From assembly GCF_024228315.1 (NCBI RefSeq), contig NZ_CP100454.1, positions 3,100,001 to 3,164,000 of the forward strand: a DNA stretch of 64,000 bases, in the 5' to 3' direction. The translations under genes and the position numbers were made by a program. Positions 38,505-45,076 of this stretch are shown in pieces (within the stretch, counting starts at the first letter, position 1; every line of letters begins with the position of its first letter). The stretch comes from Halomarina pelagica. Lineage in GTDB: Archaea > Halobacteriota > Halobacteria > Halobacteriales > Haloarculaceae. The notes under the pieces are model-generated. The model did no database searches, was not told where the DNA came from, and was given only the letters and a program-made list of their open reading frames with translations.

Positions 38505-40592
38505 TCAGTCGTCAGAAAAGATCGCCGAGGTCCAGCGTAACTGGCCGTCGAAACGTACGTACGTTTCGTCGAGTGAAAGGAACGTCCTGAACTCTTCTTC
38601 AGTGAGCGAGAACGTCCGTAGTTCACCCGGGATCAGCGAGTGGGTCTCGTAGCCCCTGATCGTGGGGATGAACGTCGTCCCCATCCCCGCGCCGCCGGTC
38701 GGATAGGTCCGGATCGTCACCTCGTAGCGATCGCCCGCCGTCTCGACGGAGCAGAAGACCGGCACGAGGCTCTCGGTGTGCGCGATGTCGACGTTCCCGT
38801 CCCCGACGACGAGGTACTGGCCGCCGACGACGCTCTCCTCGCGGGCGACGTCGAGCGCGGCCCGGAGCGTGAACCCGCTGTTGAGCAGGCGCGCCATCGT
38901 CCGTCCGACCGTGGTCGCGCCCGTGTTGATGACCGGATCGAGCGTGACGACGCCGCCGATGGCCCCCGCGTCGATGAGCGCCATCCCCTGCTCGTAGGAC
39001 GAACAGGCGTTGAGGAAGAACGCGTTCATGCCGACGGTATCGAGCGTCCGGGCGTCGAGTAACCCGTCGGAGCACAGGAACCCCCCGTCCTCGATGTGGC
39101 CGATGTAGTGGAAGTAGTCGATCTCCGACTCGAGGACCAGGCCGAGTCGGTCGGTCGTCAGGTCGCGGTGGACCGTCACGTCGAAGGGGAGGTTCGACCG
39201 CGACCCGTAGACGCCGCTCGCCTCGTCCTGCTCGTCGAGCATCGAGTCGTCGTTGCAGACGACGACGATCCTGAGGTCGCCGGTCTTCGGTCGCTGTTCG
39301 AGGCGATTCCTGAAGGCGGTCGTCGACGCCTTGGTCGCCCCCACCGGCGCGTCGGTGCCGACCCAGACCTCCTCCAGCGCCCCCGTCCGTTCGGGCCTGA
39401 CCAGCCGCGGCCCCGCGAGGTCCCCGGTCGTGCGCACTGACTCGCCCCGGACCGGCTCGCCGCGCATGAACTGCTCGATGGATTCGGCCGACGCGGCGGT
39501 CGCGACGGGCGTGTGACCGCTCGGCGTGCGGATCACCGCGAGGTCGGCGACGAGAAACGGGAGCGCCTCGACGCTCGACGGGAACGGCTCGACGTGCGCC
39601 GTCTGTTTCCACGGCGGGACGTGCGGTTCGAGCGCCTCGAACGGTACCGACAGGTACGCCTCCAGCCGCTCCGCGGGCGGCTGCTCGTACAGCGCGGCGA
39701 AGTCGAGGTCGTAGCGACCGTCGAGGTGGCGTTCGACCCTGTGGCGCTCCGCGAGATCCACGGGGTAGATCCCCTCGGTTCGGGCGAGACAGTCGAGGAA
39801 GAAGACGTGCTTGAGGACGCGCTCCACCTCGCGCTCGTACCCGTCGGGTCCGTCGAGCGGATAGGTGAACCCCTCGTCGGTGACCAGCCGCGGTTCATCG
39901 CCGGCGACGAGCCGCGCGCCGAGGTAGTACGCGAGCGGTGCGGCGACGACCGCCGCCGAGAGCGTCGGCGGGAGTTCGAGCGTCACGCCCGTCTCGGGTC
40001 GCGAGAGGCCCTCCAGGATCGACAGTTCGTCGCCGAGTTCGATCGCCGGCGGGTGCCCCCGGAGCGTCGGAAACGAGCGCTCACACGTGGTCGTCTTCAG
40101 CGACGACGACAGGTACGACACCGCGGTCAGCACGTCCTCGGGATCGTCGGTGGTGGTGATGGTCGCGGCGGGGCGCTCGTGGTACGAGCGCGCCCCGACG
40201 ACCACCTCGCCCTCGCGCTCGAGTTCAATCGAGGTCGAGCCGCTGTCGAGGCGCACCGTACACGGTCCCTCGACGCGGAAGTGGAGCTTGATGGGCGCGC
40301 TCAGTTCGACGTGGTAGACGCCGTCGGGGAGCGTTCGTTCCTCGAAGTGCGTCACCTCGTGGACGAGCGCCCCCTCCGGGTCGCGGACGTAGGTCGCCAC
40401 GGCTTGCGGGAGCGAGACGGCGCTCGTCGTGACGGCGGCCGCCGCGTCGACGGGGAGGGCGATACGGTCGGTGGGGACCGACCGCGGCTCGACGGGCACG
40501 GGCGTCGCGAGGTCGCACCGACGGCGCTCGATGCTGTCGGTGATCCGGACGCCGTCGCCGTCGGGCACCGGGTCGATGGCGACGAACGTCAC
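38505..40592 (-). CDS. CHAT-domain (caspase-fold) protein
   Basis: A 695-residue protein. The C-terminal region (about 430-650) is a CHAT protease fold: catalytic His499 in DYFHYIGHIEDGGF and Cys530 in FFLNACSSYEQG, 31 residues apart as in caspase-like enzymes. The N-terminal 400 residues contain no TPR or transmembrane segments and match no family I recognise. CHAT proteases act in gasdermin- and CRISPR-linked cell death (craspase) and in separase-like signalling. GTG start at 40592 overlaps a 12-codon upstream ORF (GTGA). Neighbours are the tiny exported peptide gene and a hypothetical gene. Confidence 0.85.
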   Translation of the reverse strand: MTFVAIDPVPDGDGVRITDSIERRRCDLATPVPVEPRSVPTDRIALPVDAAAAVTTSAVSLPQAVATYVRDPEGALVHEVTHFEERTLPDGVYHVELSAPIKLHFRVEGPCTVRLDSGSTSIELEREGEVVVGARSYHERPAATITTTDDPEDVLTAVSYLSSSLKTTTCERSFPTLRGHPPAIELGDELSILEGLSRPETGVTLELPPTLSAAVVAAPLAYYLGARLVAGDEPRLVTDEGFTYPLDGPDGYEREVERVLKHVFFLDCLARTEGIYPVDLAERHRVERHLDGRYDLDFAALYEQPPAERLEAYLSVPFEALEPHVPPWKQTAHVEPFPSSVEALPFLVADLAVIRTPSGHTPVATAASAESIEQFMRGEPVRGESVRTTGDLAGPRLVRPERTGALEEVWVGTDAPVGATKASTTAFRNRLEQRPKTGDLRIVVVCNDDSMLDEQDEASGVYGSRSNLPFDVTVHRDLTTDRLGLVLESEIDYFHYIGHIEDGGFLCSDGLLDARTLDTVGMNAFFLNACSSYEQGMALIDAGAIGGVVTLDPVINTGATTVGRTMARLLNSGFTLRAALDVAREESVVGGQYLVVGDGNVDIAHTESLVPVFCSVETAGDRYEVTIRTYPTGGAGMGTTFIPTIRGYETHSLIPGELRTFSLTEEEFRTFLSLDETYVRFDGQLRWTSAIFSDD

Positions 40593-42196: not shown

Positions 42197-42487
42197 TCAC
42201 CCAACTCGGTCGGTGTCGACGTCCACGCCCTCGGGCGTGACGACGAGGAAGCGCCGGAAGTGGACGAGCGTGCCGCCCGCGTCGCGCACGTCGCGGGCGA
42301 ACCCCGACGCGAGTTCGTTCAGGTCGCCCTCCACGGCCAGGACGAGCACCGCACCGCCCTGGACGAGGCGGGTCCACTCGACGGGCGGCGTCGTCCCGTC
42401 GAGCACGCCGAGGACGACGCGACCCTCGGGATCCGCCTCGTCGATCTCCCGCTCGACCGCCCGCAGGTCGAGTTCGAAGTCGCTCAT
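42197..42487 (-). CDS. DUF5779 family protein
   Basis: A 96-residue haloarchaeal protein: RVVLGVLDGTTPPVEWTRLV, ELASGFARDVRDAGGTLVHF. I recognise it as DUF5779. Leaderless: GTTTTATCG at about 42510-42518 on the minus strand is 25-30 bp from the ATG. Upstream lies the hairpin field. Function unknown. Confidence 0.85.
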   Translation of the reverse strand: MSDFELDLRAVEREIDEADPEGRVVLGVLDGTTPPVEWTRLVQGGAVLVLAVEGDLNELASGFARDVRDAGGTLVHFRRFLVVTPEGVDVDTDRVG

Positions 42488-42558
42488 GTCAGGCCCTCCG
42501 CGGGCCGGCGATAAAACATCCACCGTTCGAGGACCGCCACCTTTTGCTGCGGTCGTGT

Positions 42559-43148
42559 GGCGGCGACCGCGAAGCGTGTCGCCGCCGACTCCCTGGCAAA
42601 CGCTGCATTGTGAGACGCGAAGCGTCTCACAGGCTTCCAGAACCGCGGGCGGTTCTGAAAGGATCAAAACCCTCCTCCCCCTCGTCGCGCCTCCGGCGCT
42701 CCTCGGGGGTTCGTCACCGGAACGCGGCGCGTTCCGGTTGGCTCACGAGAGTGGAACGCTCGTGAACGTCGGTCCGCTCGTTCGGGCCGTACGTTTATAT
42801 CGGAGAACGGGACCAGCGTCCGTGTGACGTAACTTCCGTCGCGGGGCGCTCGCGGGTGTGCGACGCCACGCCCCGCGAGCAGCCCGCGGCGTCGCCTGCA
42901 CGCCCACGTTTTACTGTCGTCCTCAGAACCGCGAAGCGGTTCTGATGGGCTGTCCCAAGAACGACGAAGTCGTTCTTGTGGGCATGGAAGACGCGTTGCG
43001 TCTTCCACACTGCACGAGAGCTTCGCTCTCGTGAACGCCGAAAGGCGCGAAGCGCCTTCCGAGATCTCGAAGTGCCTCCGGTCTTCCGACGACTCGTCGG
43101 AGTAACGAAGCTGCTCCGAGATGATGAGAGACGCCTCTGGCGTCTCTC
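42559..43148. repeat. Dense array of short inverted repeats (about 12 hairpins), several with GAA triloops
   Basis: This 852-bp gap (42488-43339) has no gene, but from 42559 to 43148 it holds at least twelve near-contiguous hairpins with 7-13 bp stems and mostly 3-nt loops. Examples: GTGAGACGC-GAA-GCGTCTCAC (42610-42630), CAGAACCGC-GAA-GCGGTTCTG (42924-42944), CAAGAACGAC-GAA-GTCGTTCTTG (42956-42978), CACGAGAGC-TTC-GCTCTCGTG (43013-43033). Stem sequences differ while the loop is conserved. Five contain the GCGAAGC core or its complement, known as an exceptionally stable DNA minihairpin. They are not copies of one element. Confidence 0.85.
42794..42800 (+). promoter_or_regulatory. Orphan TATA box (TTTATAT) with no downstream gene
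   Basis: CGTACGTTTATATCGG matches the archaeal TATA consensus well. Transcription would start about 42820 and run through the hairpins from 42923 onward, but there is no coding frame: GTG TGA follows immediately. A non-coding RNA is possible. The sequence also reads on the minus strand as ATATAAA. Confidence 0.4.
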
Positions 43149-43339
43149 GGACCACGCTCCCTCGCGCTCGCTTCGCTCGCGCTCAGTCGCTGGTAAAACC
43201 CCGACTAAAACCGCACCTCATCCCCTCGCTGCGCTCGGGGATTCGGCGCGTCCGCTCGTTCGGCCGTCGGCCTCACTCGCGGATGCGGCCGAGCGGAGTG
43301 GGACCGCGGGGACGATCGAACCTCCCGGTCGCGACCGCC

Positions 43340-45076
43340 CTACTCCCGCTTCACGCCCGGGTTCGTCACCGCGCCGTTGGCCGCGGAGTCGAAGTCGCGA
43401 CCGTACTTCGCCAGGACGCCGGAGGTGTACGGCGGCTCCGGCTGCTCCCAGTCCGCGAGGCGCGCATCGAGTTCCTCGTCCGTGAGGTCCACCTCCAGGG
43501 TGCGCTCGGGGACGTCGACGCGGATCGTGTCGCCGTCCTCGATCGCGGCGAGCGGCCCGCCGACGAACGCCTCGGGGGCGGCGTGGCCGATCATGGGACC
43601 GCGCGTCGCGCCGGAGAACCGGCCGTCGGTGACGAGCGCCACGTCGTCCTCGTGGCCCTGGCCGACGACGGCCGCGGTGACGCCGAGCATCTCGCGCATG
43701 CCGGGGCCGCCGCGGGGCCCCTCGTTGCGGATGACGAGTACGTCGCCGCTCTCGATGCTCCCCTCCTGCACGTAGCGCATGGCGTCCTCCTCGTTCTCGA
43801 AGACCCGCGCCGGCCCCTCGTGGCGGTCGGCGTCCTTCTGGGTGACCTTCAGCACCGCGCCCTCCGGCGCGAGGTTGCCCTTCAGGATCTTGATCGCGCC
43901 CTCGTCGGCGAACGGATCGGAGACGGGGCGGAGGAAGTCGGCCTCGATCGCGTCGTCGTCCGGGAGGTCGAGTTCCTCCAGTTCCTCCGCGATCGTCCGC
44001 CCCGTGACGGTCATCGCGTCGCCGTGGAACAGGCCAGCCTCCAGCAGCCGGCGGATCACGACCGGGACGCCGCCGGCCTCGTGGAGGTCCTGCATGACGC
44101 GCGTGCCGCCGGGCTGGAGGTTCGCGATCTTCGGGGTCCGCTTCGAGATCTCGTCGAAGTCGTCGATCGAGAGGTCGACGCCCGCCTCGGCGGCGAGCGC
44201 GAGCAGGTGGAGCACGGCGTTGGTCGAGCCGCCCATCGCCACCTGGATAGCGATGGCGTTCTCGAAGGACTCCCGCGAGATGACGTCGGAGGGCTTGCGG
44301 TCGTTCTCGACGCAGTCGAGCGCGAGTTCGCCGGCGCGCCGGGCGACCTCGTAGCGCTCCTCGCCCTCCGCGGGCGGGGACGCGCTGCCGAGCGGCGCGA
44401 GCCCCAGCGCCTCGCTGATCGAGGCCATGGTGTTGGCGGTGAACATCCCGCCGCAGGAGCCCGCCCCGGGACAGGCGTGGCGTTCGAGGTCGTCCAGCTC
44501 CTCCTCGGTCATGTCGCCGTGCGCGTACGCGCCGACGCCCTCGAAGACGTTCTGGACGGTGACCTCACGCCCCTCGTGCTCGCCGGGGAGGATGGACCCG
44601 CCGTAGAGGAAGACGGTGGGGAGGTCAGTTCGGATGGCGGCCATCATCATCCCCGGGAGGTTCTTGTCGCACCCGGCGACGGTGACGAGTGCGTCCACGC
44701 GCTCGCCGAAGGCGACGAGTTCGACGCTGTCGGCGATCAGTTCCCGGGAGATGAGGCTCGCCTTCATCCCCTCGGTCCCCATCGAGATGGCGTCCGAGAT
44801 GGTGATCGTGCCGAACTCGATGGGCATGCCGCCCGCCTCGTCCACGCCCTCGACGGCCGACGCCGCCACGTCGTCGAGGTGGACGTTACACGGCGTGATG
44901 TCGGCGGCGGGATTGGCCACGGCCACCATCGGTGAGGCGAGGTCCTCGTCGTCGAAGCCCATCGCGCGGAACATCGCGCGGTGAGGGGCGCGTTCCGGTC
45001 CCTCGGTGACTTCGCGGCTACGCAGGTCGGCCGGCTTCGCCGGTTTCGACTCCCGGCGTGATTGCTGCTGGCTCAT
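43340..45076 (-). CDS. ilvD: Dihydroxy-acid dehydratase
   Basis: A 578-residue Fe-S dehydratase converting dihydroxyisovalerate/dihydroxymethylvalerate to the 2-oxo acids of valine and isoleucine. Cluster cysteines are in [15 protein letters not shown] and [18 protein letters not shown]; other family blocks are [17 protein letters not shown] and [25 protein letters not shown] element about 25-30 bp before the ATG at 45076 makes it leaderless. Divergent from leuA and the rest of the branched-chain genes. Confidence 0.97.

Follow-up and report, generated by a model that had tools for sequence, protein, structure and literature searches.

What kind of process fills a single intergenic region with a dozen short hairpins that share their loops but seemingly not their stems? 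The question arises from a window of 64,000 nucleotides of Halomarina pelagica (contig NZ_CP100454.1, forward-strand positions 3,100,001 to 3,164,000), in which an initial annotation, made from the letters alone, listed twelve perfect hairpins between positions 42559 and 43148. The excess over chance is real. Positions 42500-43300 hold nine perfect triloop hairpins with stems of at least 7 bp, where 2000 dinucleotide-model shuffles gave 0.14 on average and never more than 3, and folding 42914-43160 as single-stranded DNA gives z = -8.65. Ten of the twelve hairpins are indeed perfect, with stems of 7-10 bp and loops of 3-4 nt, whereas the remaining two, at 42559-42586 and 42744-42764, fall short of this, being imperfect or longer in the loop; the GAA or TTC loops and the five GCGAAGC/GCTTCGC cores are present as described. 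The stems had been called unrelated, yet CAGAACCG is common to the hairpins at 42638 and 42923, and GAGACGC to those at 42609 and 43126. Nor can it be maintained that the hairpins are not copies of one repeat: they are copies of dispersed repeats with paralogues elsewhere in their own genome. What does hold, across the whole repeat family, is a conserved shape with non-conserved stems. The field probably consists of haloarchaeal mobile DNA elements, small and non-autonomous, that are nested in a pile; its components are collected in Table 1.

Table 1. Components and borders of the hairpin-rich region, in window coordinates (hairpins given by their positions in parentheses).
Feature	Position	Strand	Remarks
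DUF5779 gene	42197..42487	-	Pfam PF19091, E 2e-43; borders the intergenic region
Module A, T-run/A-run palindromic repeat CCTTTTGCTG...CTGGCAAA	42534..42608	+	Inner hairpin 42559-42586
Two-hairpin unit (42609-42631)-GGCTTC-(42638-42657)	42606..42660	+	Paralogues L025, L027, L028
Type II element CGTC-(42716-42738)-TTGGCT-(42744-42764)-AACG	42712..42768	+	Second hairpin degenerate
Module B, long imperfect inverted repeat	42787..42916	+	Genus-level dispersed repeat
Inserted hairpin array, one 238-bp block	42918..43155	+	Four-hairpin type I element plus eroded type III array
Type I four-hairpin element	42918..43037	+	CGTCC-(42923-42945)-TGGGCTGTCC-(42956-42978)-linker-(42985-43007)-CACTG-(43013-43033)-AACG
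Type III-derived multi-hairpin array, partly eroded	43036..43155	+	Hairpins 43042-43058, 43085-43101, 43126-43148; right end GGACCAC
Module C	43156..43286	+	Holds right half of palindromic host module (left half GTTTTACTGT, 42908-42917)
Dihydroxy-acid dehydratase gene, ilvD-like	43340..45076	-	Borders the region on the other side

Most of the field has paralogues in its own genome, where BLAST of the region returned 41 matches, with many also in G004 and G005; the array at locus L024 has an almost identical set of hairpins, arranged alike. Copies of module A are scattered over the home genome and that of H. halobia, the two-hairpin unit is matched at 42606-42642 in further genomes of the genus, and most paralogue loci carry copies of module B at 75-92% identity. 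The type II layout recurs in L084-L091, L025-L028, L034 and L044, and the four-hairpin type I layout in L024, L035, L065 and L066. Fuller versions of the type III array exist in L024, where this part has six hairpins, and in L031 and L055, which have four; comparison with L024 suggests that DNA is missing between two hairpins of the copy in the window, and the hairpin at 43085-43101 is formed across a deletion. G001, G003 and G007 have a compact gap between the DUF5779 gene and its neighbor, an ilvD-like dihydroxy-acid dehydratase gene, whereas in the genome of the window (G000) and in G004 and G005 the gap is long, with differing contents, the simplest reading being that the region grew by additions. 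Elsewhere in the window, the minus strand at 38505-40592 encodes a 695-aa protein with no Pfam match, which is 84% identical to its counterpart in H. halobia and 42-54% identical to those in other haloarchaea.

Mining of hairpin pairs across genomes revealed a common plan in which linkers and ends are conserved, while the stems are variable yet complementary. The basic element spans 55-68 bp and comprises two short perfect hairpins (hp) set back to back, a conserved linker of 4-7 nt and short, nearly inverted ends; its types are I (CGTCC-hp-TGGGCTG-hp-GAACG), II (CGTC-hp-TTGGCTC-hp-GAACG) and III (GTCGTT-hp-TGATGA-hp-AACCAC). The type III ends GTCGTT and AACCAC pair at 5 of 6 positions, and four-hairpin forms exceed the basic length. 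An exact match to the type III pattern is present in 172 of 293 Halobacteriales genomes, with up to 53 copies per genome (a reversed-pattern control gave 2 hits), and type III is also carried by haloarchaeal plasmids. The phylum-wide draw comprised 197 genomes; none of the 164 genomes of the phylum outside Halobacteriales has the type III hairpin pair, the sole match there being without hairpins. The type I pattern, which overcounts since some of its matches are coding and lack hairpins, occurs in 116 of 195 genomes, and its two-hairpin form was found in many genomes of the order. Phage records contain no type III match, and a phage origin was rejected on that ground; a search for single-hairpin type III elements among the examined loci found none. 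About a dozen near-identical type I copies in G205 (L187-L198) lie inside larger repeats, with loops that already differ, and represent a recent burst.

What the family preserves is a fold. Across 132 distinct type III elements, 209 of the 264 stems are perfect over 2406 pairs, and the mismatches comprise 28 A-C, 19 G-T and 19 others; since G-U is not favored over A-C, as it would be by selection on an RNA stem, the fold that is kept appears to be that of DNA and not of RNA. The stems do change in paired fashion: in alignment A2, 98.1% of cells are paired, ten pairs show changes on both sides, and the covariation of 0.465 compares with 0.189 after shuffling and at most 0.129 when the alignment is slid. 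The loops are likewise constrained, with GNA/TNC making up 70.5% of type III loops against 39% expected, a C-G closing pair in 162 of 170, and GNA or its complement in 57 of 102 type I loops. Read inward from each end of type III, GNA outnumbers TNC by 112:58, as for two opposed monomers. The two stems of one type III element are never alike (0 of 132, versus 15.6 on average and never fewer than 5 in permutations); alike stems would presumably cross-pair or delete. A C-GNA-G triloop is needed for hairpin extrusion from supercoiled DNA in the early promoters of phage N4 (PMC4496689), and by analogy such loops may aid extrusion here. Those promoters share short hairpins and the triloop with the present elements but are viral promoters, not mobile repeats, and serve as a structural precedent only (PMC4496689).

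Are these elements mobile? The exact empty site for the 238-bp array of the window lies in the same genome at L030, where CGCCCACGTTTTACTGT directly abuts GCTCCCTCGCGCTCGC. The host site in module C is also uninterrupted in L033, L051, L052 and L053; related arrays occupy the corresponding site in L024 and L031, and about 20 other copies are empty. Empty and filled sites agree base for base, with no target duplication seen, and the host module GTTTTACTG...GGTAAAAC is a palindrome in its own right. A second target is the apex of the end hairpin of IS605/TnpB elements, where type III sits between CCTCGGGG and CTTGACCCCGAGG, which are contiguous in the empty form. Empty copies of this end hairpin are found in L297, L298, L300, L301 and L303 and copies filled by type III in L132, L228, L229 and L262, with variants in L128, L143, L144 and L304; TnpB genes lie directly upstream of type III in L132, L143, L229 and L262. 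This occupation of the apex recurs in several genera and across TnpB families, the junctions coinciding with the element ends. Type I, for its part, interrupts IS6 transposase genes (L210 versus L307; L069 versus L308). Flanking stems of at least 7 bp are enriched around type III (8 of 65 versus a mean of 1.1, in a small sample that includes related loci) but not at types I and II, so that type III demonstrably targets palindromes, whereas for type I this is shown only in part.

The elements also insert, it seems, into one another. Four-hairpin type III arrays of the form GTCGTT-hp-TGATC-hp-..-hp-GATGA-hp-AACCAC occur at nine loci in several genera, as though the linker TGATGA had taken in a two-hairpin unit and kept GAT on either side of it. 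Corresponding type I arrays (..TGGG-CTG-TCC-hp-..-hp-A-CTG-hp..) are present in the window, G266 and G057. We infer that the direction was nesting by insertion rather than deletion between short repeats. L031 carries the type III array only and thus looks like an intermediate stage, from which a history of the locus can be proposed: a type III array would first have entered the palindromic module downstream of ilvD, the stage represented by L031, and a four-hairpin type I element would then have joined it, the stage represented by the window and L024.

Could mutation alone have produced such hairpins? Template switching in quasi-palindromes, which the initial annotation had put forward, perfects arms and flips loops with neither mobility nor selection on the fold, and it would agree with the abundance of perfect stems noted above, with the near-equal counts of loops and their reverse complements (TTC 51, GAA 46; TCC 27, GGA 22) and with the flips of loops between near-identical copies. 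Yet it leaves unexplained the linkers and ends conserved across an order, the precise empty sites, the nesting, the preference for GNA loops and the stem pairs that are never alike, and as the sole cause we consider it unlikely; as a secondary process it may add the loop flips and keep stems perfect. A different possibility is that the double hairpin is itself immobile and is carried only as part of bigger composites specific to a genus, through recombination or the activity of IS elements. As this would predict, repeated copies often have 100-500 bp of flanking sequence in common, and Halomarina has dispersed copies of modules A, B and C, but passive carriage accounts neither for type III elements that sit in the same IS605 apex across several genera and TnpB families and are joined to it exactly at their ends, nor for the IS6 genes interrupted by type I, which makes it very unlikely.

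It is also conceivable that the elements act as structured RNAs or 3′-end signals such as terminators or mRNA stabilizers, a reading close to the multi-hairpin RNA proposed at the outset. The elements are mostly intergenic, fold strongly and covary, and some copies have T-runs nearby; against this, the stems show no G-U excess, no Rfam family covers the hairpins at the gathering threshold, the loops are strand-symmetric and of a DNA triloop type, and copies lie within transposase genes. Around type III, the gene context is convergent in 5 cases, tandem in 15 and divergent in 8, which is near background in a small sample with crude gene calls. A structured-RNA family was rejected on the missing Rfam match and the missing signal of G-U tolerance in the stems, and a terminator on the lack of a clear 3′-end preference in that same small, crudely called sample; an RNA role of any of these kinds is highly improbable. 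A match to the Rfam family sot0042 (sense overlapping transcript) was found in L127 at 37-182, away from the hairpins.

Returning to mobile DNA, an element family kept as a DNA fold would allow its stems to drift pair by pair and yet hold on to its linkers and ends. Its members insert precisely and without target duplication, often into other palindromes, the targets being the end-hairpin apices of IS605/TnpB elements, the palindromic intergenic module of Halomarina and the linkers of other copies, of which the last would give rise to four- and six-hairpin arrays. Movement would be catalyzed in trans by an enzyme that recognizes extruded or single-stranded hairpins, with cGNAg loops possibly helping extrusion. 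A DNA structure recognized by an enzyme, of which the structure-specific nuclease target suggested by the initial annotation is one form, gains indirect support from the cGNAg loops and from the precision of insertion, at hairpin apices in the case of type III. More tentatively, the fold might serve as the heritable identity of the element: an enzyme or cellular hairpin processing would read the two cGNAg hairpins and the unpaired linkers and insert the element into extruded tips, which would free the stems for pairwise replacement and let arrays nest in themselves. The search for an enzyme candidate yielded none: G000 has three Y1 transposase genes, none flanked by elements, and a RAYT-based reading was rejected for this reason.

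Mobile hairpin pairs are familiar from mitochondrial genomes as double-hairpin elements, in genomes and with sequences that differ from those of the haloarchaeal family. The closest known systems are the small mobile repeats (SMRs) of Haloquadratum, followed by the CGTC-tagged palindromes of bacteria. SMR-A of Haloquadratum walsbyi is a short, gene-less repeat, roughly 110 bp long, whose terminal inverted repeats are prominent and which was described in one species, in up to dozens of copies; it lacks target duplication and is inserted within near-terminal palindromes of IS605-type elements, its mobilization being called enigmatic (PMC3119063). The empty and filled junctions described here are likewise free of target-site duplication, and type III also resides in an IS605-type end hairpin with TnpB upstream; compared by description, the present elements differ in being double hairpins of 55-68 bp or nested forms thereof, order-wide and defined by a fold whose stems drift. 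PATEs of Haloquadratum are also transposase-free haloarchaeal repeats with palindromes, but they derive from IS605-type ends, which here are the targets (PMC3119063). The CGTC-tagged REPs form head-to-head dimers with complementary stem variation and no dedicated transposase known, some of the dimers lying in palindromes; in that survey they were found in bacterial phyla only, with stems of 8-9 bp, loops of 4-5 nt and CCA tails (PMC3733652). Types I and II carry CGTC beside a hairpin by construction, type III has CGTT instead, and among the 4-mers that adjoin hairpins in the Halomarina DNA examined, CGTC ranks second in frequency (16 of 568). Opposed hairpin pairs are shared too, the inward GNA excess of type III being a feature of head-to-head dimers, whereas the loops here are mostly 3 nt and of the cGNAg type and there is no CCA tail, the first stem being followed by TGG.. 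or TGATGA and the linkers reading TGGGCTG, TTGGCT or TGATGA. On these grounds we set the family apart from SMR-A and the CGTC-tagged REPs as a member of neither. REPINs and BIMEs with their RAYTs are also tiny paired palindromes in many dispersed copies (PMC3116915, PMC2817692); the elements here have no GTAG tag, and G000 no element-flanked Y1 transposase. A full-text search of the open literature returned no description of the haloarchaeal family beyond the Haloquadratum paper.

SMRs and CGTC-tagged palindromes have been known for more than 10 years without a mobilizing mechanism. Within one order, the present family offers hundreds of natural variants; its empty and filled sites are defined exactly, the IS605/TnpB end hairpin is a defined target, and the elements themselves bear the mark of a DNA fold (C-GNA-G loops, no G-U preference). 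This makes the movement of such repeats directly testable in a genetically tractable group. The family also explains hairpin-rich intergenic regions in haloarchaeal genomes and raises the possibility that the repeats disable the end hairpins of IS605-type elements as well as the genes of IS6 elements.

Since many copies travel within larger repeats, recombination may account for part of the spread. Larger blocks are present or absent between close genomes (596 bp in G161 versus 5 and 14 bp in G008 and G137; 954 bp in G209 versus 28 bp in G298), and these differences are not clean insertions of single elements. In L227 (G161:C1:2432440-2434501), a composite repeat at about 660-1255 is bounded by inverted GCCAGAAAGCCCC/GGGGCTTTCTGGC and is absent from that place in G008 and G137. 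G298 and G209, of genus g34, each contain about 200 matches to a related composite intergenic repeat (query L241), and within L241, at about 413-495, a MITE-like inverted repeat TAGTGGTGGTTGTA..TACAACCACCACTA adjoins two type III elements.
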